This document shows, one piece after another, positions 13,155 to 33,612 of a stretch of DNA of 64,000 bases. The stretch's first letter is position 1, and the number at the start of each line of letters is the position of its first letter. The DNA comes from Candidatus Poribacteria bacterium (lineage in GTDB: Bacteria > Poribacteria > WGA-4E > WGA-3G), in NCBI GenBank assembly GCA_026706025.1, contig JAPOZO010000056.1, forward strand, positions 1 to 64,000, read 5' to 3'. Made by a program: the position numbers and the translations under genes. Under the pieces are notes generated by a model that ran no database searches, was not told where the DNA came from, and was given only the letters and a program-made list of their open reading frames with translations.

Positions 13155-16100
13155 ATGCCGAAACTCAATCTTAAACCCAGTCACAAAGCAATCCGCGACT
13201 ACTACGCCACACTGCAGCAATACGAACAACAAGGCATCACACACGAGGGGGCCGTTAGTTCACCGTTTGATACGCTCCTACACACCTGCGCAAAACAGAT
13301 AAACGCTACGCTCGTTCCACAATACCCGATGCGTGCTCCAAAAGGAAACCGTATCGTCATTGACGGCGTAATCCTCGACGCATACGGACTCCCGCTCGGC
13401 TACTGGGAAGCGAAAGACATAGATGACAATCTCGCCAAAGCCGTACAAGAGAAACGGGACGCAGGCTACCCACTCGACAACACCCTCTTCCAAACACCAC
13501 AGCGCGCCATCCTCTACCAAAACGGTGCTGAAGTCCTCGATATTGACATCACTGAACCGGCAAACCTAATCGCAGCACTCCAATATCTGTTCGCCTACGT
13601 TCCGCCGGCATTGGATAACTGGCAGACCGCCGTCACGGATTTCAGAGAACACGTGCCAGACCTCGCAAACAGATTAAAGGAACTCATTGAACAACACCAC
13701 GAAACCGATACCGCATTCAAGAAAGCGTTCTCCGATTTCTACGAAACCTGCCGTACCTCTATTAACCCGGACCTCTCACAAGATGCCGTTGAGGAGATGC
13801 TCATCCAACACATCCTCACCGAACGCATCTTCCGTACTGTCTTTAATAATTCCGCCTTCACCCGTCGAAATATCATCGCACGTGAGATTGAAAACGTCGT
13901 TGACGCACTCATCCGTCAAGCGTTCAGTCGCGAAGAATTCCTCAAACCGTTAGACCGGTTCTACGTCGCCATTGAGCAAGCCGCGATGCTCTGCCGAGAC
14001 TTCACCCAAAAACAGCACTTCCTCAATACGTTCTACGAGAAATTCTTTCAGGGGTTCTCCGAAGATGTTGCAGACACGCACGGCATCGTCTACACACCAC
14101 AACCGATTGTTGATTTCATGGTGAACAGTGTAGAGCATATTCTCGAAGCCGAGTTCGGTCGGTTGCTCTCGGATACCGGCGTACATATCATCGATCCATT
14201 TGTTGGAACGGGGAACTTCATCGTCCGACTCATGCAGGACATCCAAGGCACAGCGTTAGAGGAGAAATATCGGCATGCGTTGCATTGCAACGAGGTAATG
14301 CTCCTGCCTTACTACATCGCCAGTCTTAACATCGAACAAGAGTACTTCCAACGCACAGGGACGTACCTACCCTTTGAAGGCATCGCACTTGCAGACACGT
14401 TTGAATTGCTTGAACAGGAGCAAGGCGAACTCTTTACACGTGAAAACACAGAACGGGTCAAGAGACAGAAAGCAGCAGATATGTTCGTCGTTATCGGTAA
14501 TCCACCTTACAACGCGTGGCAGGTCAATGACAGTGACAATAACAGAAATAGAAAATACGAGGCGATGGACAAGCGGATTGCAGACACCTATGCTACAGAT
14601 TCTAAAGCGACGCTCAAAAACTCACTCTACGATCCGTATGTCAAAGCAATTCGGTGGGCATCCGACAGAATTGGCAATGAAGGTGTTGTTACCTTCGTCA
14701 CAAATAACGGATTCCTTGAGGGGATAGCGTTTGATGGCATGCGAAAACACCTCGCAGACGATTTTGACGCTATTTATATTCTGGATTTAGGTGGGAACGT
14801 GCGGAAGGGATTAAAGGTTTCTGATGCAAATGTGTTCGGAATTCGGGTAGGCGTGAGCATCAACCTATTTGTCAAAACCAAACAGAATTCGTCGGAAAGA
14901 CCCCGTATCTCCTACTTTCGCACCGACGACCTATGGAAAAAACAACAGAAGTTTGACTTTCTGACTAAACAGCAACACACAGGTAATATCACGTGGGAAG
15001 TGATTCAACCTGATAGACAATACACATGGCTTACCGAAGGACTCCATGCTGAATTTGATACTTTCATTCCAATGGGGACTAAGGAAGCAAAAGCAGCGAA
15101 AGTTGACACAATAGACGCAATTTTTAAGACTTACTGTCGTGGTATTATAACCGGTCGCGACGCATGGGTCTACAACTTCAACCGAAATGCCCTCGTTGAG
15201 AATATTCAAGGAATGATAGACACCTACAACACAGAGGTAGATAGATGGAAACGTCGAGAAAACCAACGGGAAAATGTCAATAATTTCGTGGTTTACGATG
15301 ATACAAAAATCAAATGGGATCGGGAATTACGCCAGCATTTGCAACGCGGTAGACTTGCTGAATATTCCCAAGATAAAGTGCGAACATCCCTTTACCGTCC
15401 ATTTACAAAATCTAACCTGTTATTCGATCGCGTTCTAAACAATTGTTTCTACCTCTTTCCTTCCATTTTCCCCACACCTGAGACGGAAAGCGAGAATCTG
15501 GTGATTTGTGTAAGTGGAATAGGACACGATATTTTTAGATGCCATATTGCTAATGGAATCCCTGAGTTGAAATTCTCAAACTCCTCAAATGGCGGAACCC
15601 AATGTTTCCCCTTCTATACCTATGATGAGGACGGCACAAACCGGCAAGAGAACATCACCGATTGGGCATTGGCAGAATTCCGGACCCATTACGCGGACGA
15701 CACCATCACCAAATGGGACATCTTCCATTATAACTATGGTCTCTTGCACCATCCTGCATATTGTGAGAAATACGAGATGAACCTCAAGCGCGACTTACCG
15801 CATATCCCCTTCGCCGCAGATTTCTGGGGATTTGCCAACGCCGGTGCGCAACTCGCAGACCTCCACGTTAATTACGAATCTGTCCCCAAATACGACAGAC
15901 TCAAATACATCGAAACCCCTGATATGCCGATAGATTGGCGTGTCGAGAAAATGAAACTCTCCAAAGACAAGACGCAGTTGAAATACAACGATTTCCTCAC
16001 GATAGACGGCATCCCTCTGGAGGTCTATGACTATCGGTTAGGCACACGTTCAGCGTTAGAGTGGATCGTAGATCAGTATCGCGTCAAGGTAGACAAACGG

Positions 16101-16223
16101 AGCGGCATCGTCAACGACCCCAACCGTGCGAATGAACCGCGCTATATCGTAGACCTCATCGCCCGCGTTATCACTGTCAGCCTCAAAACCGTCGAGATCG
16201 TTAACGGGCTGCCACCATTGTAA
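13155..16223 (+). CDS. Single-chain restriction-modification enzyme (type IIG/ISP-like)
   Basis: 1022 aa. The N-terminal nuclease-like domain has D75-X9-E85-A-K87 (in GYWEAKD), a PD-(D/E)XK signature. The central N6-adenine methyltransferase has motif I DPFVGTGNF (347-355) and motif IV NPPY (449-452). The long C-terminal part (NVFGIRVGVSINLFVKTK and onward) fits the target-recognition region of type ISP/IIG enzymes. There is no SF2 helicase motif, so it is shorter than true type ISP proteins. It should both methylate and cut a specific DNA sequence. No separate methylase or specificity gene is nearby. Confidence 0.8.
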   Translation: MPKLNLKPSHKAIRDYYATLQQYEQQGITHEGAVSSPFDTLLHTCAKQINATLVPQYPMRAPKGNRIVIDGVILDAYGLPLGYWEAKDIDDNLAKAVQEKRDAGYPLDNTLFQTPQRAILYQNGAEVLDIDITEPANLIAALQYLFAYVPPALDNWQTAVTDFREHVPDLANRLKELIEQHHETDTAFKKAFSDFYETCRTSINPDLSQDAVEEMLIQHILTERIFRTVFNNSAFTRRNIIAREIENVVDALIRQAFSREEFLKPLDRFYVAIEQAAMLCRDFTQKQHFLNTFYEKFFQGFSEDVADTHGIVYTPQPIVDFMVNSVEHILEAEFGRLLSDTGVHIIDPFVGTGNFIVRLMQDIQGTALEEKYRHALHCNEVMLLPYYIASLNIEQEYFQRTGTYLPFEGIALADTFELLEQEQGELFTRENTERVKRQKAADMFVVIGNPPYNAWQVNDSDNNRNRKYEAMDKRIADTYATDSKATLKNSLYDPYVKAIRWASDRIGNEGVVTFVTNNGFLEGIAFDGMRKHLADDFDAIYILDLGGNVRKGLKVSDANVFGIRVGVSINLFVKTKQNSSERPRISYFRTDDLWKKQQKFDFLTKQQHTGNITWEVIQPDRQYTWLTEGLHAEFDTFIPMGTKEAKAAKVDTIDAIFKTYCRGIITGRDAWVYNFNRNALVENIQGMIDTYNTEVDRWKRRENQRENVNNFVVYDDTKIKWDRELRQHLQRGRLAEYSQDKVRTSLYRPFTKSNLLFDRVLNNCFYLFPSIFPTPETESENLVICVSGIGHDIFRCHIANGIPELKFSNSSNGGTQCFPFYTYDEDGTNRQENITDWALAEFRTHYADDTITKWDIFHYNYGLLHHPAYCEKYEMNLKRDLPHIPFAADFWGFANAGAQLADLHVNYESVPKYDRLKYIETPDMPIDWRVEKMKLSKDKTQLKYNDFLTIDGIPLEVYDYRLGTRSALEWIVDQYRVKVDKRSGIVNDPNRANEPRYIVDLIARVITVSLKTVEIVNGLPPL

Positions 16224-17089: not shown

Positions 17090-18367
17090 TCAATCTTCGG
17101 TTGGCCCTCTTTTCACCCGTTCAAGAGCCTTTCTCGCTAACTCTATGTCTTCGCATACATCCGTATAATCGGGATCTATTTTGCGGGCTGCCTCATAGTT
17201 CTCTATTGCCGCGCTATAATCGCCAAGGGCAGCCTTTATCTGTCCCCGCGTGTGGTAGAATAATGCGACATCTGAGTCTAATTCAATAGCAGTATTAATG
17301 TCAATTAGTGCAGCTTGATATAAATCCTTAGCCGCTTCTATATTTCCCACTGCATCTTCAGATTTGCCGAAGTGCCACTTTGTATCTGCTCGGTTGTTGT
17401 AAACAATAGCCAAATTTGCACATAATTCAATTCCTTTTGTATAATCGTCAATAGCGTCTCTATAGTGATTTTGTGCTTCTTTGACCTTGCCCTCATCAAA
17501 CTTAAATTGACCAAGGATAGACTTTGCAGCTCCTCGACTGTGGTAGACTGAAACATAGTCTGGACACAGTTTGATGGCTTTTGTATAATCGTCAATAGTG
17601 CCTCGGTAGTGCTGTTGCGCCTCCACTAAATTACCTTCATCAGTTTTTAATTTTCCCAACTGAAACCTTACGTTACCTCGACTCTGGTAAAAATAGACAC
17701 AATTTGGATTTAGTTGGATAGCTTTATCTAAGTCAACTATCGCTTCCGGATAGAGATTAGGTGAATGTTTATTTTGGCCCTCACGCAAACAGACATAAGC
17801 ACGTATTTGTTCTCTCTTCTGCCATTGTATCAAAGGTTCTATTTCGTGCATCCGGGCGAGCAGCATTTTGACTGCTGTTACCGGAACAGCAAAAGTAAAA
17901 TAATCCGCATTGGCGACTGCAACCGCAATAACCTCACCGTTACCGTTTAATACAGGAGCACCACTATTCCCGCCATCAGTCTTGCATTTCATCCGAATCC
18001 ACTTATCGCTATCGCGAATACTATGTATGGGTCCCTCTGTAACCTTGTATTTTCCACGAGGGTAGCCTATCACTTGAACAGCATCTCCATGCTGGAGTAG
18101 ATCACTGTCACCGATAGGAAGTGGTATCCCCTCGCCTGCAATTTTTAGAATGACGAGATCATTTTTGGGGTCAAATGCTGTGCTGCCTTCAACAACGAAT
18201 TTGGTCTCTGTTCCCACCAGTTCTGCGGAAATTGATGTCGCCCCTGCGACAACATGAATATTCGTCGCAATTAGGTTTTTCCCGACAAAAAATCCGCTAC
18301 CTCTACCAGCACCTTCTGCTCTTATTAAAAGGGCTATAGGATCACTTAACTCTCTACTCTCTTCCAT
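17090..18367 (-). CDS. Trypsin-like serine protease fused to TPR repeats
   Basis: 425 aa. The protease domain (about 5-180) has His38 in TNIHVV, Asp70 in KNDLVIL and Ser135 in GGNSGAP, an HtrA/DegP-type S1C triad. From about 205 to 425 there are at least four TPR-like repeats with the signature A(I/V)xDYTKxIxL. No signal peptide is visible, so it may be cytoplasmic, or exported another way. AAAGGAGGG at 18372-18380 (minus strand) is a strong ribosome site fixing the start. It follows an HNH gene on the same strand by about 50 bp. Confidence 0.85.
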   Translation of the reverse strand: MEESRELSDPIALLIRAEGAGRGSGFFVGKNLIATNIHVVAGATSISAELVGTETKFVVEGSTAFDPKNDLVILKIAGEGIPLPIGDSDLLQHGDAVQVIGYPRGKYKVTEGPIHSIRDSDKWIRMKCKTDGGNSGAPVLNGNGEVIAVAVANADYFTFAVPVTAVKMLLARMHEIEPLIQWQKREQIRAYVCLREGQNKHSPNLYPEAIVDLDKAIQLNPNCVYFYQSRGNVRFQLGKLKTDEGNLVEAQQHYRGTIDDYTKAIKLCPDYVSVYHSRGAAKSILGQFKFDEGKVKEAQNHYRDAIDDYTKGIELCANLAIVYNNRADTKWHFGKSEDAVGNIEAAKDLYQAALIDINTAIELDSDVALFYHTRGQIKAALGDYSAAIENYEAARKIDPDYTDVCEDIELARKALERVKRGPTED

Positions 18368-18416
18368 AATAGTACCCTCCTTTGGGTGTTATTCCTGTTA
18401 GCCTCAAAGAACACCC

Positions 18417-18632
18417 CTACTTCCCATGAATCCGTTTATGGCACCCACCACACACTGCAGTCAGGTCACTGAGTCGCTCTCTGCCGATACGTTTATAGGT
18501 TTCGTGATGCACTTGCGTTGCATGTCTCCTTCCGCACTTCCGGCATTTATACCCGGCACGTTTCAAAATCGTCCGGCGTTTGGTCTGCCATCGCCTTGAT
18601 TTTCGGTATCGTCTATATGATCTCTTATTCAT
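18417..18632 (-). CDS. Small HNH endonuclease
   Basis: 71 aa. It has a basic N-terminus (RSYRRYRKSRRWQTKRR), then CRKCG, the HH pair in QVHHETYKRIG and CGGCHKRIH, which together make an HNH/zinc-finger nuclease motif. The metal-binding cysteines and histidines are all present. Upstream of the protease gene in the same direction. Could belong to a mobile element or a defence islet. Confidence 0.75.
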   Translation of the reverse strand: MNKRSYRRYRKSRRWQTKRRTILKRAGYKCRKCGRRHATQVHHETYKRIGRERLSDLTAVCGGCHKRIHGK

Positions 18633-18730
18633 GCCTTATCCTCAAAATAGGTTTTAAATGTTCAAGGGCACCGTTGCCTTTACTTCTTAAAATTATAGTA
18701 TATCTGATGAGAACATTCAAGGGGAAAGTT

Positions 18731-18805
18731 ATATACATGCCGCCCTTACAGGGCTGAGTCGCTTTTTACAACGTCTTTCTATAAACATACCGTCCTTACA
18801 GGACT
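18731..18805 (+). repeat. REP family II pair
   Basis: ATGCCGCCCTTACAGGGCT and ATACCGTCCTTACAGGACT, both stem-forming and in the orientation opposite to 17002-17080. They form the left part of a composite block also found at 27057-27275. Confidence 0.75.
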
Positions 18806-18846
18806 AAAGAGAGGTTTTTGAAGTTTTCAAGGTTTCTATGTAAAAT

Positions 18847-18950
18847 CCGGTTCGGTTAGGAATGCAGATCGCATGAATCAACGGTATGAATGCCTTATGG
18901 GCATTCCCCGGGGTGAGTACACCGCAAAACCGAACCTACCGGACCTGGGG
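18847..18950. repeat. Structured 104-bp repeat, copy 1
   Basis: Begins CCGGTTCGGTTAGG and ends AACCGAACCTACCGG followed by acctgggg, so the ends pair. An inner hairpin GAATGCC/GGGCATTC lies in the middle. Copies at 27168-27237 (inner hairpin missing) and 45595-45698. It may be a non-coding mobile repeat or a structured RNA. Confidence 0.75.
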
Positions 18951-19167
18951 CCGAGGCGTTATTTTTTCTAAAATTGAAACTTATGTGTGGTTAGGAAACG
19001 GAACCTATCGGACCTGGGGTCCAAAATTGAAGTAAAAATCGAGAACTGAATGGTTCTGTACCCGTTCAACGTTAGAGTGGATAGTTAATTCGATATTGTG
19101 CTAAAATAGATAAACGGAGCGGAAAGAAAAAGATTGCGTCCATCCTATCTATCAAGGGAAAGAAAAA
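18951..19167. other. Intergenic remainder before the AAA gene
   Basis: The first 40 bp extend the composite repeat shared with 27238-27275. A partial end of the 5217-5408 element lies near 19042-19057. A weak ribosome site (AAGGGAAAG) precedes the ATG at 19168. No gene is seen. Confidence 0.5.
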
Positions 19168-20784
19168 ATGAGACGTTTTGGAACCCAGGGGCGTGTGTAT
19201 CCTGACAAACATTATGTGGTCGCCCGCGCCGAGGAGACCGCCGATTTCATTGACCGCATCAAAGACGGGCGGTATATTGTCTTGTTCGCGCCCCGGCAGA
19301 CCGGCAAGACAACCTTTTTTCGCTTGGCACTTGACGCACTCGCTATTCAGGATTCAACCTATTTCCCGATTCAACTGAATTTTGAGGAGTATGAGGACTA
19401 CGATCCAGCCAGTTTTTATGCTTCCCTTCATAAGGAGATTTGCAAGGAAATTGAGAGGGTTTTTCAAAAACGCGGGACGGATCCCTCTGACGAATTGGCG
19501 CGCTTTTTGGTAAACGCAGAGATAACCGACCATGTTTCAATGAGAGAGTTCTTTGAAGAGTTTGCGAAGTTTCTGTCTCAAGGCACGCATTGGCAGCGGG
19601 TTGTCCTTGCCATTGACGAGTTTGATGCTATCCCTCGTGCTGCACTTAAAGGGTTTTTGCGTTCGCTTCGCTATATCTACCTTTCCGACCAAATCCGATG
19701 TCCACACAGTGTTGGGATCGTTGGTGTTAAAGGGATCGCACAACTCAACTACGACCGATCTATTTCTCCGTTCAATATCCAAGATGAATTCCATTTGCCG
19801 AGCTTCACGCTTGAACAGGTGCAAGAATTGTTCGGACAATATACAGACGAAGTCGGGCAAGCCTTCGCACCAGAAGTGATTGCGTCCGTTCATAAGCAAA
19901 CAGCGGGGCAGCCTGTACTCGTCAACCGATTTGCACAGATTCTCACCGAGGAGATGGTCATCCCAAAAACCGCGACGATTACAATGGCGCACTGGACGAC
20001 AGCGCATGCGCAGCTTCTTGAGGAAAGTAATGTCAATATCACACATCTGACAACCAATATCCGTAAAGACCCGCGCTTTGAAAACTTTCTGATGCGAATT
20101 ATGACGCGTGATGAAGGTATAGCCTTCAACTTACGCAATGACATCATCAGTGAACTCGCCACTTACGGTGTTATCAAAGCGGGGACTGACGGTATGTGTG
20201 AGATTCTCAATCCAATTTACCTCTACTGCATTATGCAGGTATTCAAACCACTCGTAAACGGGCTGGAGCAGGCGTATTTCCCTGAAGACACGGACGATGC
20301 GGGACGTGAATATCTCACACCCGCGGGGTGGATTGATATGGCATCTTTACTTGATAACTTCCGGGATTTCATCGCGCGGGCGGGGTTCAAGATTCTGCAG
20401 GTTCCAGATACGCCCCAAGAGTCGGTCGGACGACACCTCTTGCTCGCCTATCTTGATGAGTTTGTGAGACGCGTCGGCGGGGTGATGCACATTGAAGTGC
20501 AAACCGGGCGCGGCAGAATGGACCTCCTTATCACCCACAATCAGCGAAAATATATCGTTGAGACAAAGATTTGGAGAGGCGAGAGCCGCTATCAGTCAGG
20601 CAAGAAGCAGCTTGCAGCGTATCTCAAGTTAGAAGGCGTAACAGATGGATACTACATCGTGTTTGGTCATCGGCAAACCCCCGAGCCTCGGATAGAGACG
20701 GAGACTTTGGACGGTGTAGCCATCCGGAGTTATATTATCCCTGTGATACAGGAAGCCCCCTCAAACATTAACCCTCCTCTGTAG
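19168..20784 (+). CDS. AAA-family ATPase with C-terminal PD-(D/E)XK nuclease-like domain
   Basis: 538 aa. Walker A is APRQTGKTT (41-49) and Walker B is VVLAIDEFD with Asp150-Glu151. The C-terminal region (about 400-530) has D452-X12-E465-T-K467 (RMDLLI...IVETKIW), which fits the PDDEXK_9/DUF1703 family. Known: such ATPase-nuclease fusions are common and uncharacterised. Roles in defence or as selfish genes have been suggested. The last codons and the TAG stop lie inside a REP element. Confidence 0.82.
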   Translation: MRRFGTQGRVYPDKHYVVARAEETADFIDRIKDGRYIVLFAPRQTGKTTFFRLALDALAIQDSTYFPIQLNFEEYEDYDPASFYASLHKEICKEIERVFQKRGTDPSDELARFLVNAEITDHVSMREFFEEFAKFLSQGTHWQRVVLAIDEFDAIPRAALKGFLRSLRYIYLSDQIRCPHSVGIVGVKGIAQLNYDRSISPFNIQDEFHLPSFTLEQVQELFGQYTDEVGQAFAPEVIASVHKQTAGQPVLVNRFAQILTEEMVIPKTATITMAHWTTAHAQLLEESNVNITHLTTNIRKDPRFENFLMRIMTRDEGIAFNLRNDIISELATYGVIKAGTDGMCEILNPIYLYCIMQVFKPLVNGLEQAYFPEDTDDAGREYLTPAGWIDMASLLDNFRDFIARAGFKILQVPDTPQESVGRHLLLAYLDEFVRRVGGVMHIEVQTGRGRMDLLITHNQRKYIVETKIWRGESRYQSGKKQLAAYLKLEGVTDGYYIVFGHRQTPEPRIETETLDGVAIRSYIIPVIQEAPSNINPPL

Positions 20785-20807
20785 GAGCGAGCTCGGCTCG
20801 CGATCTT
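20779..20807 (+). repeat. REP palindrome supplying the stop codon of the ATPase gene
   Basis: CTGTAGGAGCGAGCTCGGC plus TCGCGATCTT, same family as the copies around the RAYT gene. The TAG within CTGTAGG is the stop at 20782-20784. Confidence 0.8.
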
Positions 20808-21071
20808 CAGCAGACAACAATCCATTTTTCTAACAACCACGTAAAATTTCATAGCAGCTTCCATACAACCTCCTGCCAAAATCGCCTATAGCACAGACAG
20901 TGTATAGGTTTACAGCCGTTTTCAAAATCCATCAATTTTCAGAGTTGCTATGAAAACTGTGAAATTAGTTCTATGAGAAAAAGACAGGCACTCGGAAATA
21001 AAAACAGTAATAAAATAGAAAAATATGTAGACACCTCTCAAAATTTGTCCATTTTCTCCAATTACTTGCAG
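20808..21071. other. Intergenic stretch without a recognisable gene
   Basis: AT-rich, with no ORF of protein-like character and no strong palindrome. It lies upstream of the duplicated promoter segment. Confidence 0.5.
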
Positions 21072-21343
21072 AATTAGGCAACCGTTTTGTCCATCTCCCG
21101 CGTCTTTATAATTGAAACGCGGATCTACGTGAATGCGAACAGAATCCCCTAAAGAATCAATCGTTAGGTACGTTAATTGTAAGGAGATAAAAGATGAAAA
21201 GAAATTGGTTGATTTCTACAGTTTTGGTGGCTTCAATTATCGGCTTATGCCTAAGCCTTCAAAGTTGTGCCAGAAATAAAATAAATCTGCGAAAAACATT
21301 GGATACGAAGGAAACCATGCGGGTGCAGGCATATTGGGATCCG
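21072..21343 (+). repeat. Duplicated promoter plus lipoprotein leader (copy of 25616-25886)
   Basis: About 272 bp, with only scattered differences from 25616-25886. It includes the ECF-type motif, the untranslated leader and the first roughly 50 codons of selenoprotein A. Homology stops at the GGGATCC shared by both copies. Confidence 0.85.
21078..21104 (+). promoter_or_regulatory. ECF-type promoter motif A
   Basis: GCAACCGTTTTG then GCGTCTTTATAAT. GCAAC and GCGTC start 22 bp apart, 90 bp before the ATG at 21194. Drives the copied leader and probably the ABC permeases. Confidence 0.65.
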
Positions 21344-21421
21344 ATAAACCCGAAACTTTGCAGTTTCTACTATTCTTTTTCATTTGGAAGTGTCTCTAAT
21401 CGACAAACACCAAACTTTTAG
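21194..21421 (+). pseudogene. Truncated lipoprotein: leader copy of selenoprotein A
   Basis: 75 aa. The first 52 residues (signal peptide, lipobox LSLQSC, then NKINLRKTLDT) are nearly identical to selenoprotein A at 25738. After WDPI the sequence is unrelated (NPKLCSFYYS...) and ends at TAG. It may still be translated as a short lipoprotein or leader peptide, since it keeps promoter and ribosome site. The permease ATG follows 10 bp later, so it may now serve as a translated leader for the transport genes. Confidence 0.7.
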
Positions 21422-21430
21422 GGAGATGTC

Positions 21431-22918
21431 ATGCTACGAACACTTATCCGTCAAGAACTTCTGGCCCATCTGATGAGTGCACGTTTTTTTGCTGCTGTTG
21501 TCATTACGCTTCTACTTGTTGTCGCCAATGCTGTCGTACTTCTTGAAGATTACGAGCGTCGGTTGTCGAAATATAACCAGCAAGAAAATGCACATCGTGA
21601 GAAGGCACAAGAAGCGAGAACCTATTCGATGCTAAAACTGTCTACTGAACGTCCGCCGAACCCCTTAAGTCTTTTTAGTGCCGGATTGGATAAGCGGCTT
21701 GGCACCACTTTTGACATTTACCACGGTTTCGTCCCGATGATTTCGGATGGCTCGGCGCGAAGTCTCGATAACGCGTTTCTCAACCTCTTTTCAAAGATTG
21801 ATCTCGTCTTTATTTTTCAAGTTGTTTTGAGCCTGATGGCACTGCTTTTCGCTTACGACGCAATTGCAGGAGATTGGGAAAACGGCACCTTGCGTCTGGT
21901 TATTTCTCACCCTGTGAGACGCGGAACCATTCTACTTGCGAAATATATTGGAGCAATGGTCTGTCTGCTGCTTCCAGTGCTGATGAGTCTGCTGATGGTC
22001 CTGATTCTGTTATCCACTGTCGGTTCAATCCAATTGGATGGAGAAGATTTTCTCCGGATTGGTGGGATAGTTTTGACGACGACCATCTACTTGTCTGCAT
22101 TTTATCTGATCGGACTGTTGATTTCTACCACAACGCGCCGCACTGCTACATCCCTGATGCTCTGTATGTTCTTGTGGGTAACTTTAGTGCTCGTCTATCC
22201 GAATTGGAGTCGGTTTGCTATCACCCCCGTTGGTGATACACGGGCAATACGATCATCATCAGATCAGCAGATTGAACAGATTTGGGAAGAGGTTGATAGA
22301 GAAGAAAGCCGGTTCTTAGCCAATAGTCCGCTTGAAGGCAAACCTCGAAAGTTTAATCTGGATGTCCAGCAGTCAAATAGTTTCTCGTCAGCGGGACACC
22401 TCAACAGACGGTATGGTATGGATATGAAATTGGGAACGGAATCAGATCCGTTAGTGCCACATGTTCAAAAGTATCATGCCGCCATGGGTGCCTTATACAT
22501 CCGTTCGGCGGAACAAATTGCTTTAGCACGAAAACAGACCTTAGACAGCACCGCTCTCCGGGAATCAATATGGCATGAACGCCTGATGAAACTCAGTCCT
22601 GCAAGTTTGTATACGTTCGCAACTGCTGCGTGGGCGGGCACGGATCTGGAGGGTATGTTTGATTTTATCCAAACCGTTCAGGGGTACCGGCTTACGGTCA
22701 TTGACTATTTTCACGATAAGGATGCGTTTGGGAGTCGGCAATGGTTCGCCTCCGATAAAGGTTCAGTAGACTGGTGGGATCTGCCCCAGTTTCACTTTAA
22801 TCGGGTAGATATTTTGGAAAATGCAACGCGAGCACTGCCAGAATTGTTTCTGCTTCTACTCATCAACCTCGTTCTGTTCACGGTAGCATTTCTGATTTTC
22901 ATCAAAATTGAAGTATAA
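21431..22918 (+). CDS. ABC-2 type transporter permease (DUF3526-like), subunit 1
   Basis: 495 aa. Ribosome site AGGGAG before the ATG. An N-terminal TM helix (about 20-38), a long extracytoplasmic loop, a membrane block (about 115-260, including the ENGTLRLVISHPVRR segment typical of ABC-2/NosY-like permeases) and a last helix at 470-492. Paired with a homologous permease 27 bp downstream. No ATP-binding subunit lies in this part of the window, so it must act with an ATPase encoded elsewhere. Substrate unknown. Confidence 0.82.
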   Translation: MLRTLIRQELLAHLMSARFFAAVVITLLLVVANAVVLLEDYERRLSKYNQQENAHREKAQEARTYSMLKLSTERPPNPLSLFSAGLDKRLGTTFDIYHGFVPMISDGSARSLDNAFLNLFSKIDLVFIFQVVLSLMALLFAYDAIAGDWENGTLRLVISHPVRRGTILLAKYIGAMVCLLLPVLMSLLMVLILLSTVGSIQLDGEDFLRIGGIVLTTTIYLSAFYLIGLLISTTTRRTATSLMLCMFLWVTLVLVYPNWSRFAITPVGDTRAIRSSSDQQIEQIWEEVDREESRFLANSPLEGKPRKFNLDVQQSNSFSSAGHLNRRYGMDMKLGTESDPLVPHVQKYHAAMGALYIRSAEQIALARKQTLDSTALRESIWHERLMKLSPASLYTFATAAWAGTDLEGMFDFIQTVQGYRLTVIDYFHDKDAFGSRQWFASDKGSVDWWDLPQFHFNRVDILENATRALPELFLLLLINLVLFTVAFLIFIKIEV

Positions 22919-22945
22919 AGGTTATCAGGTAAAGGAACATAAAAA

Positions 22946-24472
22946 ATGATTTGGCATATCATCAAACGTGAACTCTTTGACCACATCAATAGCCTGCGCT
23001 TTATTTTAACGGTTGTAATGCTTTCCGCCTTAATGATTACCAACGCTGTGGTGCATCTTCGGACGCACCCGAAAAAAATCCGTAATTATTCTGAGAACGT
23101 TACCAAATCCTTTAACAAGTTGGAATCTCGGACAGAGTTGTATTCTCTGGCAGAAAAGGGGCCCGGTAACCTCTACAAACGCCCTTCCCCACTTGCCTTC
23201 ATCGCCGACGGCGGTAATGCTTATCTGCCGGGACATATATTCAACGAGGGGTCTTGGTCGAAAAGCAGTGCAGGTGGCAAGTTAAAAAGCAACTGGTGGT
23301 TGAGTTACGGCACTGTGAACCCAGACGCAAAAGATCTGCGTCCGCAGGCAACGAAGATAGATTGGGTATTTATTATCACCTATTTGCTTTCCTTCATTCC
23401 GCTCCTATTTACTTTTGATGCGCTTTCTGGGGAGCGAGAACAAGGGACCTTGCGATTGTGTCTTGCGAATCCGATTTCGCGCCCCGTTCTGTTAATCGGT
23501 AAATTTTTAGGGACGTTAATAACCGTCCTCATTCCGTTTGTTTTGGCAGTGTTGCTGAATCTGGCGGTGATTTCGATCGATAGTTGGACACAACTGAGCG
23601 CAGCCGACTGGGGACGTTTAGGGTTGATCCTGTTGATTGCTTCCAGCTATGCGGGTATCTTTGTCGGGTTGGGGCTGATGGTTTCCGCTGGTACGCGCGA
23701 GCCTCGGATGAGCCTTGTTGTGCTCTTATTGATTTGGGTGGCGGCTGTGGTTTTTATGCCATCTACCCTCGGCACCCTCTCCACAAAGTGGATGCCACCT
23801 GTCCAAACGATTGATCAATTTCGTGCTTCAAGAGAAGCAATCCTTGACCAGATTAACGCAGACTATAATGACCGATTGAACGCAATCAAAGAAAAAAAGA
23901 CCCCTAACCTTCCAAACTTAAGTGAACTTCAGAAACTTTTTGAAACGTCACCTGAAGCTGCCAGAGCCGAAGCAGAAAAGTATAGAGCGGCGTGGGAAAC
24001 GGAGGGTGAGGAAGAATTGGCACTCAAGGCGGAACTCGTCAACAGAGATGTAGAGGTTCGAGAACGCTTTAACCGCGAGTATTTAGACGCACAAATCGCG
24101 CAGGTACAGCGGGCAAGAGTTGTAACCCGGTTTTCACCGGCAGCGATTGTCCAATACGCCCTTGAATCAATGGCAGGTACTGGCTTTAACCGGCATTTGC
24201 AATATTTAGAACACGTACATGATTACACAAGACAATTTCGACAATTCATCGTCGAAACCGATAGTGCAGACCCACAAAGTCGTCATCTTATCGGTATCCG
24301 TGAGGGTATGTCTCAGAAGCCGTTCTCGAGTGAGGCGATTCCAAAATTTGAGGATCAGATCGCCTTCAGCGATACATTTAACACTGCGACCTTGGATCTG
24401 CTGCTACTCATTTTACTGCTCGGAGTGTTTCTTTCAGGGGCATTTCTTATCTTCATACGTTCAGCTGTATAA
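22946..24472 (+). CDS. ABC-2 type transporter permease, subunit 2
   Basis: 508 aa, same architecture as the preceding gene: TM helix near 15-33, periplasmic loop with coiled-coil-like Glu/Lys-rich stretch (about 290-390), membrane block 135-275 with EREQGTLRLCLANPISRPVL, final helix 480-503. The two permeases probably form a heterodimer. No ABC ATPase gene is adjacent. Confidence 0.82.
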   Translation: MIWHIIKRELFDHINSLRFILTVVMLSALMITNAVVHLRTHPKKIRNYSENVTKSFNKLESRTELYSLAEKGPGNLYKRPSPLAFIADGGNAYLPGHIFNEGSWSKSSAGGKLKSNWWLSYGTVNPDAKDLRPQATKIDWVFIITYLLSFIPLLFTFDALSGEREQGTLRLCLANPISRPVLLIGKFLGTLITVLIPFVLAVLLNLAVISIDSWTQLSAADWGRLGLILLIASSYAGIFVGLGLMVSAGTREPRMSLVVLLLIWVAAVVFMPSTLGTLSTKWMPPVQTIDQFRASREAILDQINADYNDRLNAIKEKKTPNLPNLSELQKLFETSPEAARAEAEKYRAAWETEGEEELALKAELVNRDVEVRERFNREYLDAQIAQVQRARVVTRFSPAAIVQYALESMAGTGFNRHLQYLEHVHDYTRQFRQFIVETDSADPQSRHLIGIREGMSQKPFSSEAIPKFEDQIAFSDTFNTATLDLLLLILLLGVFLSGAFLIFIRSAV

Positions 24473-24601
24473 CGCAAGCTGAACGTGTGGAAAGGGAAAC
24501 ACCCCGAATCATCAACAACTTATCAAGAATATAGAGATAGCGAAACCTTTCATTGAGGATAGTTATCACAAACCACTTTTACTAATGGAGAGGAACCTAT
24601 C

Positions 24602-25465
24602 ATGTTGAAAAGATTTCGTGTCGTTTTTAGCCTATTACTCATTTTGGGCTTTAGTGTAACGCTGTCGGCACAGGAAGGGAAAGATGCCTATTTCTTACAC
24701 GCGCCAGGGAGCTACTGGGTTTACGAAGATCAGGATGGAAATGAATTAACACGCCGTGCCGTATCAGAAAAAACAATTGAAGGGGAGACGTATCATGCCT
24801 TCAACTATGAACCTGCTTTGGAGGAGTGGGCAGATTATGATTATCATATCTACCCGAATTTGTACCAGGTTGGCGAAGAGAGGGTTACGTTCTTGATCGG
24901 AGAGGAGGCACAGAAAGCAGTCAAGGCACGCTTTACCAAAGAGATGGAAACTTTCATCAAAATAGGAAAGCAAATGAGCCCCGATATTAATATTTTCTAT
25001 CAGATCAAGGCGGAAGTACAGGACCCGTTCTATGCACTTCCAGCGTCTGTCGCCTTCAACGAAAAATGGGAGGCAACGCAGATAAAAGCCAAAATCACGA
25101 TGGCCACTTTTCCACCACAAGACCCTGAAGAAATCATAGTTGAGTTCACTATTGTTGAAACAGGCAAGGTCTTAGGGACGGAAAAAGTTGAGACCCCCGC
25201 GGGCACTTTTGAAGACTGTTTGAAGATTGAATACCGAACAGAAACAGGTGTAACAACAGTCCCCCCGCAAGACGAAAATCCGCCCGGCGAAACCGTTACG
25301 ACGCTGTGGGTAACTCCTAACGTCGGAATCGTCAAGTTTCACCAGAAAACGGAGGATATCCTTCTGAAAGTTATTCCGATCCTTGAACCTAAGGATTCAA
25401 CCACCATCAAAATCCTTAAATTAAAGAGGTATGAAGTCAAATCTGCTGATTCGGATGGCAGATAA
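24602..25465 (+). CDS. Secreted protein with an AGTFxxCLK/GIVK domain
   Basis: 287 aa. Signal peptide about 1-23 (ends LSAQE). AGGAACCT lies before the ATG. The C-terminal half has PAGTFEDCLKIEY and LWVTPNVGIVKFH, which also occur as SAGTF(R/P)ECL(R/K)HKT and LWFAKGVG(I/L)VKM in the extracytoplasmic parts of sigma factors 3 and 7. A shared fold is likely, though not identified. 129 bp after the permeases. Possibly the same transcript. Function unknown. Confidence 0.7.
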   Translation: MLKRFRVVFSLLLILGFSVTLSAQEGKDAYFLHAPGSYWVYEDQDGNELTRRAVSEKTIEGETYHAFNYEPALEEWADYDYHIYPNLYQVGEERVTFLIGEEAQKAVKARFTKEMETFIKIGKQMSPDINIFYQIKAEVQDPFYALPASVAFNEKWEATQIKAKITMATFPPQDPEEIIVEFTIVETGKVLGTEKVETPAGTFEDCLKIEYRTETGVTTVPPQDENPPGETVTTLWVTPNVGIVKFHQKTEDILLKVIPILEPKDSTTIKILKLKRYEVKSADSDGR

Positions 25466-25615
25466 ACAACTCCCGGCAAGAGGGTCCCCAGATCAAAAAG
25501 TCTAAGCAGTTCGTCATCTTTCTCCTCCTGTTTCGATGGATTGCTGGAGGACAAGGATGAGAATCTCGACTATTGGCAGCTGATTACTAATTACTATTTC
25601 ACTGACAACTAACAA
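25466..25615. other. Short intergenic stretch before selenoprotein A
   Basis: No ORF or palindrome seen. The duplicated promoter segment starts near 25616. Confidence 0.4.
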
Positions 25616-25621
25616 AATTAG

Positions 25622-25648
25622 GCAACCGTTTTGTCCATCTCCCGCGTC
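25622..25648 (+). promoter_or_regulatory. ECF-type promoter motif B
   Basis: GCAACCGTTTTG and GCGTCTTTATAAT, start-to-start distance 22 bp, 90 bp before the ATG at 25738. It is the source copy of motif A. Confidence 0.65.
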
Positions 25649-25737
25649 TTTATAATTGAAACGCAGATCTACGTGAACGCGAACAGAATCCCCTAAAGAA
25701 TCAATCGTTAGGTACGTTAATTGTAAGGAGATAAAAG

Positions 25738-26988
25738 ATGAGAAGAAATTGGTTGATTTCTACAGTTTTGGTGGCTTCAATTATCGGTTTATGCATAAGC
25801 CTTCAAAGTTGTGCCAAAAATAAAATAAATCTGCGAAAAACATTGGATACCCAGGAAACCATGCGGGTGCAGGCATATTGGGATCCAATTGCAGATGCTT
25901 CGCTCGGTTTGCCCGATCATTCACCGAAGCATGTCGCGCTGTTTAAGAATCTCGTACCGGCGCACGTCAGTCGAGAATATGACGTAGACGCTTTCAAAGC
26001 TTTTTTTCCTAAAGGATCCGCTCCTGTTGGACACGTGTGGGAACTGGATATGAACGATGTCCTTCTGTTTCTCCGCCAATTCCACCCAGGGGCAACCGCT
26101 GAGATGCACATAAATCCGGGCGGAGAAGGTGCCATAGAGATATTTGGTCGGCATATAACTCTGATAAAGGTAGGTCTGGAGTCAGAGGGTGCCTTCGCAT
26201 GTCTTCGCGCACTTTCACCGACTTATGCCGAAATTGTTTTCAGAATCCATGCTGAATTCCAACTCGATGAAGAGGCGCGCGCCTATTTTACACCCGCACA
26301 ATTCACTGGACGGTTGATACTTAATCGGAGCAACGGCACTATTCGCGATTTTTGGCTTCATCTCCCACCGCGTAATACCAATGTTGACCTCAACGCCTTC
26401 GGCGGTGCGGATATGGTTTACGTGCCGCGCATGGAACTCATCGCACAAAACGCGCATGATGAGAGTGATATTGTCTGGGAGACTGCTATTACAGAGGCGG
26501 TGGCGCAGTCGGCATTAAAGGCTGCCTTCTACAAATCTGCCGAAATTGAGAGGCACCCCGTTAAGGAGGCTGTTGCACAAGCGCAAGTGGAGAATCGCCC
26601 TATTCATGTGGTTCTCACATGGGGTGTGTTTGACGACGAATCGTGCTGAGCGAGCGGTAAAACTTTGAGGGCAGTTGTCCTCTCCGATTCAAAAATCGTA
26701 AAATTGCTCAATAAGCACTACGTCAACGTATTCCTTCTGATTCGGGATCTGCGTGAACTTCAGAACGAAACGAAGGATGAGTCCATAAGTAGATTCGCAA
26801 GCACGATTTCCACAACGTTTGACGCGGCCGTCGCGCGGGGCGTAGATGGTTCTGTCAACAGTTTTGTACTATCGCCCCAATTGGAGTTGATAAGTCATTT
26901 ACCTTATGAGGATCTAATAAAACCGAATGAGGTCATTGACGATACATACCTGACATTTCTAAAGGATGCTCTGACCAAAAACAAGTAG
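25738..26988 (+). CDS. Candidate selenoprotein A: lipoprotein with in-frame TGA (Sec304)
   Basis: Read through the TGA at 26647-26649 this is 416 aa. ATG follows AAGGAG. Lipobox SLQSC (Cys25). The N-terminal domain has the family marks YAEIVFRIHAEF and FTPAQFTGRL. The TGA sits in DDESC-U-ASGKTLRA, after which the same frame continues to a TAG with residues (VLSDSKIVKLLNKHYVNVF) matching the other three paralogues. A GAGGGC/GTCCTC hairpin lies 17 nt after the TGA. It lacks the C-terminal beta domain present in B-D. Known: UGA can encode selenocysteine if SelA/SelB/SelC/SelD are present. None is in this window. Alternative: two separate ORFs. Confidence 0.75.
26667..26682 (+). promoter_or_regulatory. 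bSECIS-like hairpin, selenoprotein A
   Basis: GAGGGC-AGTT-GTCCTC, six base pairs including one G-U, loop beginning AG. It starts at +18 after the TGA. Same position as in the three paralogues. Confidence 0.6.
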
Positions 26989-27056
26989 GTGTGTTCTGAA
27001 ACTGAAACTATAGGTGTCAATTTAGGGATATTTCTCGTTATTTCGTAGTAGCATCT

Positions 27057-27128
27057 CTACAAATGCCGCCCCTCTGGGGCTTAGGTCTTTTTGGGCAGCT
27101 GCTATAAACATATCGTCCCTACGGGACT
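27057..27128 (+). repeat. REP family II pair, second location
   Basis: ATGCCGCCCCTCTGGGGCT and ATATCGTCCCTACGGGACT, with compensated stem changes relative to 18731-18805 (CCCTTACAGGG to CCCCTCTGGGG). Confidence 0.7.
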
Positions 27129-27167
27129 GAAGAGGGTTTTGAAGTTATCAAGGGTTCCGCGGAGGAT

Positions 27168-27237
27168 CCGGTTCGGTTGGGAATGCAGATCGCATTTGGG
27201 CGAGTACGCCGCAAAACCGAACCTACCGGACCTGGGG
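27168..27237. repeat. Structured repeat, copy 2 (inner hairpin deleted)
   Basis: Same ends as 18847-18950 (CCGGTTCGGTT and AACCGAACCTACCGG), but the central GAATGCC/GGGCATTC hairpin segment is missing. Confidence 0.7.
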
Positions 27238-27305
27238 ATCAAGACGGTTATTTTTTCTAAATTGACACTTATGGTGTGTTCTGAAACTGAAACCAACAAA
27301 ATTAG

Positions 27306-27332
27306 GCAACCGTTTTGTCTGTTGCCCGCGTC
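27306..27332 (+). promoter_or_regulatory. ECF-type promoter motif C
   Basis: GCAACCGTTTTG then GCGTCACTATATAT, 22 bp start to start, 52 bp before the ATG of selenoprotein B. Confidence 0.65.
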
Positions 27333-27383
27333 ACTATATATCAAGATTAGGATCTACGCGAACGACATTTAAGGAGACTGAAA

Positions 27384-29054
27384 ATGAAAACCTTAACCAT
27401 TGCTCTTATTATTCTAATGATGATAGGTGGACAACTGAATGCCGACAACCACTCGGCAGCTAATAACAAAATAACACTTAACCTTGATGGCACATCAGAG
27501 GTATTAGTAAAAGGCTTTATTGCACCGATTGAATACACACAATATAACTACCATGTAGAGTGGGACGAGTTGGCAAACCTACGGGTTGCTGAACCTGAAA
27601 AGCGGTATCCGACATCGGTTTTTCACGCTTTTCTGCCAGACCAAGCAGTTTCGGTCGGTGCTCTCTGGCAAATCGAGGAAAAAGGAGCGTTGGAATTGCT
27701 GAAGCAACTTCACCCCAATCCAAGTCTGAATATGCACATCAATACAGGGGATTCTTACGGTTTGTGGGCGTGCCTGCGTGCTTACAACGATCAATACGCT
27801 GACATTGTATTTCGCATCCATGCGGAATTCGTTTTAGAGAACGGTTGGTTTACACCGTCACAGTTTACTGGACATCTTGTTGTTGACCGAATCAAAAAGG
27901 AAATTGTGTTTTTCGAGATGTACGTTCCTGAAGGGGTCTTGAATTTTGATGTCAACTGGAAAAGATTTGGCGGGCGCATTACTGACATCGGTTTTTGCCC
28001 GCAAATAGAACTCCGTGCCGGAAGGCAAGATGTTTTGCAAAACAACATGTTCACGGAATCTATTACCCAAGAAGCCGCGGAACGCGCCCTGATATTGCGT
28101 TTCTACAAATCACAGCAGATTAACTGGGTGTCCCTTGAAGAGGCGTTGAAGATGGCACCAACACAACAAAAACCGGTTCACGCCCTTTCAATAGATGGAC
28201 CGCTTGCAGACGAGTCGTGCTGAGGGAGCGGCAAAAGCCTGAGGGCAGGTGTCCTCTCCGATGACCGACTTATAGCATTCTTGAATGAGAATTTCATTAA
28301 CATATGGATACCGAATTCTGAATTAGGGCGCGTCCCGAGCTTACAGGATCCGATTGCCAAGAGACGCGAGCGAGAATCTAAGACGTTTGACACGACGCAT
28401 GCTTTGGCACAAGCAATCATGAAAGGGTGGAAACAACACTCACCTGCGGACTCTTTGGTAATCTCACCAAAATTTGAATTGATGGGTAGGCTTCCAGTCA
28501 ATGAACGTATTTCGCCATATAACGGCGCAGAGGGGTATCTTTTATTTCTCCAAGAATCCTTGGATAAAAAACTCCCCGGTTTAGGTGAGGAATCCTCGGA
28601 ACTGAAACCAACAGATTGGGATACACTCCTTGAAAATGCTGTCGAATCCGGCGCGATTGTAGCTGACGGTTTGAAGGTTGTGCTCACCAATGAGCATCCT
28701 AAGCAGGAGATCCTCAGCGTTTTTCGGAAGCCCGATTACACTGTTGTTGAGATTGATACAACTGCGTTTAAAGATGGTGGCTTACTCACTATTGATATCT
28801 GGGTGGGAGATGCTGAGGTTGCCGGTTCATTTGACCTGTTTGTTGGTAACACGACAGAACTCGTGTCTGACAACGCGCTTGCCTCTATAAAGGATATTCC
28901 AACGAATCAGAGAGAAGTTATCAAGTATCCTTTGGATCGGGGTGGTATCTTTAAGTTAGGGGCTATCGCCAGCGCGAAAGGGAACGGGAAAATCAACGGA
29001 TTTCTCGCAAAGATCTCTGTGGAACCTGTGTCCGAAAAAAACGAGGGAAATTAA
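27384..29054 (+). CDS. Candidate selenoprotein B: exported thioredoxin-like protein (Sec280)
   Basis: 556 aa through the in-frame TGA at 28221-28223. AAGGAG ribosome site. Signal peptide about 1-20. N-terminal domain about 60-270 with WACLRAYNDQYADIVF and FTPSQFTGHL. The active-site-like stretch LSIDGPLADESC-U-GSGKS starts a thioredoxin-like beta-alpha-beta (LRAGVLSDDRLIAFLNE, then FINIWI). C-terminal beta domain about 450-550 (YTVVEIDTTAFKDGG, KINGFLAKISV). Frame and homology continue without interruption for 277 codons after the TGA. The WD40 gene starts immediately after the stop. Function inferred: extracytoplasmic thiol/selenol redox. Confidence 0.8.
28241..28256 (+). promoter_or_regulatory. 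bSECIS-like hairpin, selenoprotein B
   Basis: GAGGGC-AGGT-GTCCTC, starting 18 nt after the TGA. The CAGGT loop start resembles the E. coli fdhF element (GCAGGTCTGC). Confidence 0.7.
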
Positions 29055-30131
29055 ATGGATATGAAAATGACGAAATTAATAAGTTTTATTCTCAGTTTGA
29101 CCGTTGCTGTATTTCTCGCAAATGGGTTTGCTGGGGGCTTACCCGTAGGTGCTATCGCCCAAATTGATACTGGACAGCAATCTGTTAACGCTATCGCATA
29201 TTCTCGAGTCGCAAATCGACTTGCAGTGGCAGCGGCAGAAAACATCCGTATCTATGATGCGAATACCTATAAGGAACTGATGGTGTTTGTTGGACATACG
29301 GATTCGGTATTAGCAGTTACCTTCTCCCCAAATGGTAAACGCCTCGTGAGTGGCGGTTCAGACGAGACGGTGCGTTTATGGGAGGCAGACACCGGTAAAC
29401 TTTTGCGGACCCGCGAGGAACATACGGGACCTATCAATGCTGTCGCTTTTTCTGCCAATGGTGAAAAGTTTTGGAGTGGTGGCAACACAGACCCGGCAAT
29501 TCGATCTTGGTTTTCGGCTGACGGTGGAAAAGCGAGCAAAGGTGGTTTCATGCCTGCGGATGTTTTCACTGCAACAGCATTTCCATCCGGAGGCGAAACC
29601 GCAGCGAGAGCCTTGGATAAGGCATCAGCTCACAAAGATTTGGTTAAGTTTTTGTTGGAAAGTGGTGATAACCTTGGGACGAGTATTGCTTTCCTTTCTG
29701 GAGTTAACAATCCAGGTATCATATCTGGGCATACGGATTCAGTGAATGTACTAACCCTCTATGCAGATCAGAAGACCCTCGCGACTGGAAGTATGGACAA
29801 AACGATCCAACTATGGAATATGGCAGACCCCAAGAAATCGCTTCATATCCTTGCAGGGCATACCGAGGGTATTACAGCCATGGACTTCTCAGTAAATGGT
29901 AAACGCCTTGCAAGTGGGAGTTTTGATAAGACGGTCCGATTATGGGATGTTGTCACCGGACAGCATCTTCGGACGCTTACTGGACATACAGGCGAAATCG
30001 GTGCGGTGACGTTCTTAGGAGATAAAACACTTGCCGGCATCGGATTTGCTGAAGCCAAAACACTTGCCACTGGAAGTTCAGATGGCACTGTTTTTATTTG
30101 GGACCTGAATAAAATCGTCTCAACGGATTAG
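29055..30131 (+). CDS. Secreted WD40-repeat protein, partner of selenoprotein B
   Basis: 358 aa. ATG at 29055 directly follows the selenoprotein stop TAA (29052-29054). An in-frame ATG at 29061 is equally possible and matches the start of the paralogue at 32448. Signal peptide, then about six WD40 repeats (for example RLVSGGSDETVRLWEADTG and RLASGSFDKTVRLWD), enough for one propeller. One central repeat is degenerate (about residues 150-210). Tight coupling suggests that it works with the selenoprotein outside the membrane. Partner unproven. Confidence 0.85.
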   Translation: MDMKMTKLISFILSLTVAVFLANGFAGGLPVGAIAQIDTGQQSVNAIAYSRVANRLAVAAAENIRIYDANTYKELMVFVGHTDSVLAVTFSPNGKRLVSGGSDETVRLWEADTGKLLRTREEHTGPINAVAFSANGEKFWSGGNTDPAIRSWFSADGGKASKGGFMPADVFTATAFPSGGETAARALDKASAHKDLVKFLLESGDNLGTSIAFLSGVNNPGIISGHTDSVNVLTLYADQKTLATGSMDKTIQLWNMADPKKSLHILAGHTEGITAMDFSVNGKRLASGSFDKTVRLWDVVTGQHLRTLTGHTGEIGAVTFLGDKTLAGIGFAEAKTLATGSSDGTVFIWDLNKIVSTD

Positions 30132-30137
30132 CGTCTA

Positions 30138-30146
30138 TGTTATAAT
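30138..30146 (+). promoter_or_regulatory. Extended -10 promoter for 30254 gene
   Basis: TGTTATAAT 7 bp after the WD40 stop. The same block (GCGTCTATGTTATAATCTAC) follows the paralogous WD40 gene at 33475-33494, ahead of selenoprotein D. Confidence 0.45.
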
Positions 30147-30253
30147 CTACATGCACAGACATCCGAAATAACAGAGTTATGACATTTCTGATAAAAATGA
30201 TTTTGTTAGCTACTCTTGCATGAACACTAACAACTATAGAGGAGATTTTGACA

Positions 30254-30628
30254 ATGCTTAGTAACGTTCTTTACATTCTAAATTTTATGGTATACTTGGG
30301 TCTTGCAGTATTGCTGGTGTTTATATGTTTACGAACGAGATCAAAGGGATTGATTCTTATTAGCGCGATACTTCTTACCGGTGGAATCTTTAATTCGATT
30401 TTTGAACAAGGTATTGATTTCTATATGGAACAATGGATAGCGCGTGAGGCAGCCAGCGACGGCGTGTGGAATATGAATGCTGCAGAGTTCCTAATGGGAG
30501 TTGCCTTGGTAGAATCCTTGCTATACGGATGTTTATGTTTGATCGGTGGCTTCCTTGTCTATAGGGAGTGGCGACTCGGAAAGTTTCGCAACCCTCAACC
30601 TGAACATTTAGAAGAATCTACGGCATAA
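30254..30628 (+). CDS. Small membrane protein, three to four TM helices
   Basis: About 124 aa from ATG 30254 (GGAG at 30241). TM segments about 4-22, 30-45 and 78-100. The charged C-terminus REWRLGKFRNPQPEHLEE is likely cytoplasmic. I do not recognise a family. It sits between the two selenoprotein-WD40 units and has no counterpart after the second. Confidence 0.65.
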   Translation: MLSNVLYILNFMVYLGLAVLLVFICLRTRSKGLILISAILLTGGIFNSIFEQGIDFYMEQWIAREAASDGVWNMNAAEFLMGVALVESLLYGCLCLIGGFLVYREWRLGKFRNPQPEHLEESTA

Positions 30629-30637
30629 CGAAATCAA

Positions 30638-30730
30638 TTATAGTAAAGCTCGAAGATATGTGGACACTTTAGCAACACAAAATTCCCGCTTGCAAGCGGG
30701 GGGTCCAATTAATTGTGGACTTTACTATAA
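30638..30730. mobile_element. MITE-like palindromic element upstream of selenoprotein C
   Basis: TTATAGTAAAG at 30638-30648 pairs with CTTTACTATAA at 30720-30730. The middle has CCCGCTTGCAAGCGGG. No ORF. It may contribute promoter sequence to the next gene, 28 bp away. A relative of the left half lies at 63901-63934. Confidence 0.6.
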
Positions 30731-30757
30731 CTTGTACAAACGACAAGGAGATGGAAA

Positions 30758-32443: not shown

Positions 32444-32447
32444 AAAT

Positions 32448-33476: not shown

Positions 33477-33482
33477 CGTCTA

Positions 33483-33491
33483 TGTTATAAT
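33483..33491 (+). promoter_or_regulatory. Extended -10 promoter candidate for selenoprotein D
   Basis: TGTTATAAT, 7 bp after the WD40 stop and about 120 bp before the ATG at 33613. Paralogous to 30138-30146. A GCGTC precedes it, but the matching -35 is absent. Confidence 0.45.
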
Positions 33492-33612
33492 CTACGCAGA
33501 TGTACAAGATAACAGATCTATGGAGTTTCTCATACACACTATTTCATTCGGTAATATCACGTGAATACCTACAATTTTTTCAACTTGTGCTAACCATAAG
33601 GAGATTTTGAAA

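Follow-up and report, generated by a model that had tools for sequence, protein, structure and literature searches.

The DNA analysed here, hereafter the window, is a stretch of 64,000 nucleotides on a 252-kb contig (C56) of Candidatus Poribacteria, belonging to a MAG-type set of 6.27 Mb in 103 contigs from a sponge-associated bacterium. Its central part carries a truncated copy of a selenoprotein gene, a cassette of three genes (PermA, PermB and a DUF3108-like gene), an intact copy of the selenoprotein gene and an array of further genes. The names selA, selB and selC are our own labels and do not denote genes of selenocysteine synthesis; G numbers designate other genomes. The features are as follows.

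20961–21072, + strand: flank 5′ of the first selA promoter, assigned as ancestral, common to G005, G006 and G029
21077–21104, + strand: P1, GGCAACC-N17-CGTC, exact pattern
21105–21193, + strand: leader and ribosome-binding site of the truncated selA copy, repeated at 25649–25737
21194–21421, + strand: stump ORF, 75 aa; codons 1–50 of selA with the lipobox, the remainder running into the cassette leader (cassette homology from 21361)
21361–21414, + strand: the cassette's own conserved leader element, which precedes PermA in relatives
21431–22918, + strand: PermA, ABC-2 permease (PF12679, DUF3526)
22946–24472, + strand: PermB, ABC-2 permease (dN/dS 0.11–0.18)
24602–25465, + strand: DUF3108-like protein (PF21347), third gene of the cassette, which comes after PermA-PermB in relatives
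25541–25612, + strand: putative vestige of a selA 3′ flank, from an upstream copy now lost, matching the selA 3′ flanks of G006 and G004
25621–25648, + strand: P2, motif of intact selA, exact pattern
25738–26988, + strand: intact selA, selenoprotein, in-frame TGA at 26647–26649
27305–27332, + strand: P3, motif before selB, without a gene start, exact pattern
27384–29054, + strand: selB, second selenoprotein, TGA at 28221–28223
35360–36691, + strand: ECF sigma factor with a C-terminal extension (Sigma70_r2/r4_2, Sigma70_ECF), proposed regulator of P1–P3

After intact selA, the array proceeds as selB-WD-selC-WD and then the ECF gene at 35360–36691. The in-frame TGA of the sel genes lies in the context DESC-TGA-xSGK, and TGA was found in all 39 of the 39 hits of a pattern that also permitted Cys or Ser at that position. 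The same genome encodes a tRNA-Sec of 78.1 bits, above the Rfam cut-off; by this tRNA and the conserved in-frame TGA, selA is classified as a predicted bacterial selenoprotein. With respect to a SECIS hairpin after the TGA, the folds of two 60-nt stretches (z of -0.82 and 0.17) were not better than those of shuffled sequences, and our literature search returned nothing that combined Poribacteria with a selenoprotein. Upstream of the array, 13155–16223 encodes a type ISP restriction-modification enzyme. The interval between selA and P3 (26989–27293) harbors a 265-nt insert (27009–27273) flanked by 20-nt direct repeats, GTGTGTTCTGAAACTGAAAC; parts of the insert recur at 18810–18950, and G029 has the same site without it.

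The duplicated selA start and the permease cassette

The segments 21053–21345 and 25597–25889 form a direct repeat, 94% identical over 293 nt without gaps. Its core (21069–21345 versus 25613–25889; 277 nt, 96%, E 2e-128) comprises the 28-nt motif GGCAACCGTTTTGTCCATCTCCCGCGTC at 21077–21104 and 25621–25648, followed by leader, ribosome-binding site and the first 50 codons of selA, which include the lipobox LQSC, in agreement with the original prediction that these elements are duplicated. Nine sites within 21073–21345 separate the two copies. The similarity ends after GGGATCC(GAT), as abruptly as had been claimed; nevertheless, because the selA of relatives (e.g. G005) reads GGGATCCGAT at this point, the stump actually extends to about 21348. 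The stump ORF (75 aa) had also been described as lying 10 bp before the permease ATG; it does adjoin PermA, at a distance of 9 nt from the ATG at 21431. Its final ~25 codons, as well as the DNA just 5′ of this ATG, lie outside the repeat and belong to the cassette's own leader. The RNA fold of the leader 21105–21193 was not significant (z 0.66), and an Rfam search of 18000–33500 gave 0 matches.

The stump codons are 95% identical to those of intact selA over 152 coding nt. We considered whether the stump might derive from the non-lipobox paralog, which occupies the first position in G006 and G029; this was ruled out by the codon identities: 86–93% with the lipobox-type selA of G014, G005, G032, G006, G029 and G004, versus only 79–82% with the non-lipobox paralog. 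The six named relatives in which selA was found are all Candidatus Poribacteria MAGs. The promoter of the stump is 92–96% identical to those of the non-lipobox paralogs in G006 and G029.

To the left of the stump, 20961–21175 is 87% identical to a syntenic locus of G005 that lacks permeases and has the order type ISP gene, AAA gene (92%), flank, motif, selA, motif, selB, WD and selC. The flank of the truncated copy was also found in G006 (20844–21345, 87%) and G029 (20998–21345, 86%), and the 28-nt motif is identical at P1, at P2 and in G005. When the nine differing sites, admittedly few for a test of polarity, were compared with the sequences of seven relatives, the truncated copy was favored at 7 sites, one of them resting on 1 relative against 0, and the intact copy at 2. 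Tree branch lengths were 0.004 for the truncated and 0.033 for the intact copy. Position and polarity thus concur, at the level of sequence comparison, in assigning the truncated copy to the ancestral position. The G005 locus also features a two-ORF element between the motif and the start of selA (L083 5972–7440), presumably of the IS3 type as judged from its ORF sequences, and its selA is cut at codon 90.

The cassette is found at other loci, so that the proposed comparison with related genomes gave both a locus without permeases and permeases without this locus. Thirteen further genomes of the genus carry copies of PermA with 84–90% identity away from this locus; G028 has a 75% copy, and an 87% copy lies on another contig (C13) of the window's own genome, which has at least 27 PermA matches (26 of 87 candidates scored). 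In relatives, PermB comes after PermA and is often followed by DUF3108. DNA similarity to most other cassette copies starts at 21361 or some nt later, and similarity to other genomes stops near 25511; beyond 25534, there was no match to the regions behind DUF3108 in relatives. The dN/dS values (0.08–0.13 for PermA and 0.08–0.33 for all three genes) indicate that the cassette genes are maintained under purifying selection. The PermA and PermB trees disagree over where the cassette of the window belongs and single out neither C13 nor any one genome as its source. The leader element contains AAGTGTCTCTAATAGACAAA, with a GTCT..AGAC inverted repeat (window version, AATCGACAAA). It is kept before PermA even in relatives that have no P motif there, and it occurs near selenoprotein-like genes in three genomes (G009, G018 and G021). 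A pattern search for Walker and signature motifs, a crude test, found no ABC ATPase in the window and nine loci.

The right-hand boundary of the cassette is marked by 25541–25612, which is similar to the selA 3′ flanks of G006 (56/72 identical) and G004 (48/60 identical) and, more weakly, to that of G061 and to sequence behind the second G004 paralog. For each of these four matches, 0 of 2000 shuffles scored as well. No match to this segment was seen in the selA 3′ flanks of G019, G003 and G029, which are shorter, in the flanks preceding P1 or in the 3′ flank of the window's own selA, and it is single copy in its genome save for one 16-nt match. Its resemblance to a selA 3′ flank makes it probable that the left side of the intact copy was formerly occupied by an entire selA together with such a flank. 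Such a tandem order is seen in G004 (motif-selA-flank-motif-selA paralog), where the second copy is a 65% paralog.

The comparison shows a first selA copy that is ancestral in position, a 5′ stump of it on the left of the cassette and a 3′ remnant on the right, with a cassette-free site in G005 and the cassette present at other loci, as would be left by a replacement within one of two tandem genes. By contrast, position, polarity and the right-hand remnant all speak against the original proposal that 272 bp were copied from 25616–25886 to the front of the permeases; a donor at the old place and a copy at the new one was rejected, as the ancestral flank belongs to the truncated copy. Insertion of a transposon likewise found no support: the three cassette genes account for the long ORFs of 21346–25612, no transposase match was obtained there, and the interval is bordered by a 5′ stump and a 3′ flank instead of a short target duplication.

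The P motif and a candidate sigma factor

Sites resembling P1–P3 are widespread among relatives. A loose form of the motif, GGCAACCNNTTT-N10..14-CGTC, gave 80 sites in 35 of the 38 genus genomes, as compared with 20 for the reversed control, and 70 of the 80 were exactly 28 nt long. A strict form, GGCAACCNTTTT-N10..14-GCGTC, gave 78 sites in 41 of the 72 order genomes and 0 in the control; it was present in 30/38 genomes of the genus, 11/20 of the rest of the family and 0/14 outside the family. The AT-rich borders of the motif are conserved over 42 sites.

We assessed the genes downstream of the loose sites using 16 query genes and the 59 site records with fetched DNA, at least 1 of which is an edge duplicate of the window's P3. 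The best match was selA, selB or selC for 29 records, a homolog of the ECF gene for 5, PermA for 3, WD1 for 2 and another gene for 1; the remaining 19 had none of the 16 query genes. In all 5 ECF cases, which are sites of a sister genus, the motif lies 48–51 nt before an ECF gene that is a 56–65% homolog of 35360–36691. In the window (genome G000), the ECF gene stands 8 kb downstream of P3 and has no motif directly ahead of it. Its orthologs, some partial or cut by contig ends, were found in 29 of the 38 genus genomes, and a motif is located within 20 kb upstream on the same strand in 19 of these 29; in the other 10, there is no motif nearby. The genome of the window has 45 matches to the ECF gene, many of them paralogs. 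Residues 315–439, within the extension of the sigma factor, are 48% identical to the C-terminal part of selB over 126 columns. These observations make it very likely that GGCAACC-N17-CGTC serves as an ECF sigma promoter, and the array sigma factor is the most likely cognate factor of P1–P3. The window contains further ECF factors at 38161–41238, 46044–48962, 49948–50826 and 59494–60426, of which two are fused to BNR/Vps10-like or Ig-like domains and two were seen only as homologs of 35360–36691.

No terminator-like site was found between P1 and PermA on the same strand. From this, the intact motif and the stump stop 9 nt from PermA, we infer that P1 controls the permeases, which are likely to be co-regulated with the selenoproteins.

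A second motif, GCAACCTTT-N11..13-CGCGAC (also written GCAACCTTT..AAAACGCGAC), was found at 16 sites in 13 of the 38 genus genomes (records L221–L236; control, 0) and not in the genome of the window. Five of the sites precede the PermA of this same cassette (G008, G010, G013, G023 and G030), five lie 33–73 nt ahead of an ECF gene, and the remaining six precede other ORFs or none nameable, one having an odd spacing. Depending on the species, this one permease is thus placed behind either of two ECF-type promoters. In addition, G012 has a P motif 125 nt ahead of a PermA paralog, and in G014 and G032 the P motif is followed by selA and PermA′ with PermB′. Taken together, the five relatives, G012 and G014/G032 lend plausibility to ECF control of such permeases. 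The cases with a P motif (the window, G012 and G014/G032) are also suggestive of a repeated recruitment of permeases to P sites, with the proviso that in so numerous a family some chance adjacency is expected.

The G014 and G032 operons are similar to the window in having a selA fragment to the right of the permeases that starts at the window's codon-50 point, but their selA is full length and their permeases are 54–61% identical, representing a different cassette. The fragment, degenerate and covering codons ~49–90 (L072 12163–12320 and L074 13716–13870), starts within ~10 nt of the end of the window stump, and its far deletion point coincides with that of the truncated G005 selA. The seams of these genomes and of the window could possibly reflect a common older event or a hotspot.

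Origin and use of the captured promoter

We favor, at a probability of about 0.6, a history in which the first of a tandem pair of selA genes had its body replaced by the PermA-PermB-DUF3108 cassette, such that an ECF sigma factor would now read from P1 into the permeases. The ancestral state would have been two tandem selA genes as in G004, and the replaced stretch would have extended from codon 51 to a point inside the 3′ flank, P1, the leader and 50 codons being left in place. The ECF sigma factor, most likely that of 35360–36691, would transcribe from P1 via the stump into the permease genes, with P2 and P3 driving the selenoproteins. Translation of PermA may be coupled to that of the stump, as the stop codon of the latter lies only 9 nt before the ATG. 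Since the cassette keeps its own leader, P1 probably adds a second input, and the cassette may not need to rely on the captured promoter alone. Promoter capture as originally proposed is thus retained in so far as the permeases sit behind an intact selA-type promoter in the same direction; what is to be revised is the movement, as the permeases would have come to the promoter and not a copied promoter to them. None of the genomes seen retains the expected intermediate, in which both selA copies would be full length and of the lipobox type.

Capture by copying, with a selA 5′ fragment set before the permeases, for instance by single-crossover integration of a circle carrying the fragment and the cassette, would likewise yield a 5′ stump, the cassette, a full gene and 277-nt repeats at 96%. 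We regard it as unlikely, because it leaves the 72-nt selA 3′ flank before the second copy unexplained and because it is the truncated copy whose upstream flank is ancestral and whose sequence is the more ancestral-like. False joining of two loci through the repeat also deserves attention, as repeats of 96% identity are a known source of erroneous joins, the genome is a draft, and the complete stump-cassette junction occurs only in the window's genome among the 38 genus genomes searched, 37 of which match some part of the query. The seams at 21345–21361 and 25511–25541 lie outside the repeat, however, the copies differ at 9 sites, and both flanks match the syntenic G005 locus in order, which renders such an artefact highly improbable.

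The stump might instead be a neutral leftover, the permeases using their own leader element at 21361–21414 with P1 being irrelevant, a view that accords with the conservation of this element before PermA in relatives without the motif there. We consider it rather doubtful: all 28 positions of P1 and its AT-rich borders have been kept, the stump and its promoter show less change than their counterparts in the working gene, five relatives have a different ECF-type promoter directly ahead of the same permease, and the P motif of G012 stands ahead of a PermA paralog. A wider scheme may be put forward tentatively, as a possibility that we hold somewhat below even odds: the cassette would have switched sigma factor within the genus (GCAACCTTT..CGCGAC versus GGCAACC..CGCGTC), permeases of this family would have entered the selenoprotein regulon repeatedly (the window; G014/G032; G012), and the array sigma factor would carry a domain in common with the selenoproteins under its control.

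Relation to known systems and significance

Regulatory rewiring by rearrangement, in which genes gain a new upstream promoter, is a known kind of event. The present case differs from promoter capture in general in that the new genes would have replaced the body of one tandem gene, leaving its promoter and signal-peptide codons, with the other copy intact. As for the sigma factor, the ECF41 study describes a promoter TGTCACA-N16-CGTC, few targets, an adjoining sigma gene and a C-terminal extension (PMC3426412). The system proposed here resembles ECF41, as described there, in its bipartite promoter with a -10 CGTC, its neighboring targets and the C-terminal extension of the sigma factor (PMC3426412), but it has a -35 GGCAACC and a 17-nt spacer, and it is likened to ECF41 by these features, not assigned to it. 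Relative to that description, it also differs in that the sigma extension shares a 126-column stretch (48%) with a neighboring selenoprotein and in that the candidate targets are selenoproteins and permeases.

While the event is of a kind already known, the case is unusually complete and testable: it offers a natural example of operon rewiring together with a cassette-free site (G005) and the likely ancestral order (G004), and it is probably a working case of natural genetic rewiring. With one permease family standing behind two ECF-type promoters, these selenoproteins may be functionally connected with transport, a hint to be viewed with caution as such permeases are very common in these genomes. 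For Poribacteria, the results point to a small candidate ECF regulon centred on selenoproteins, with a precise motif by which it can be tested.
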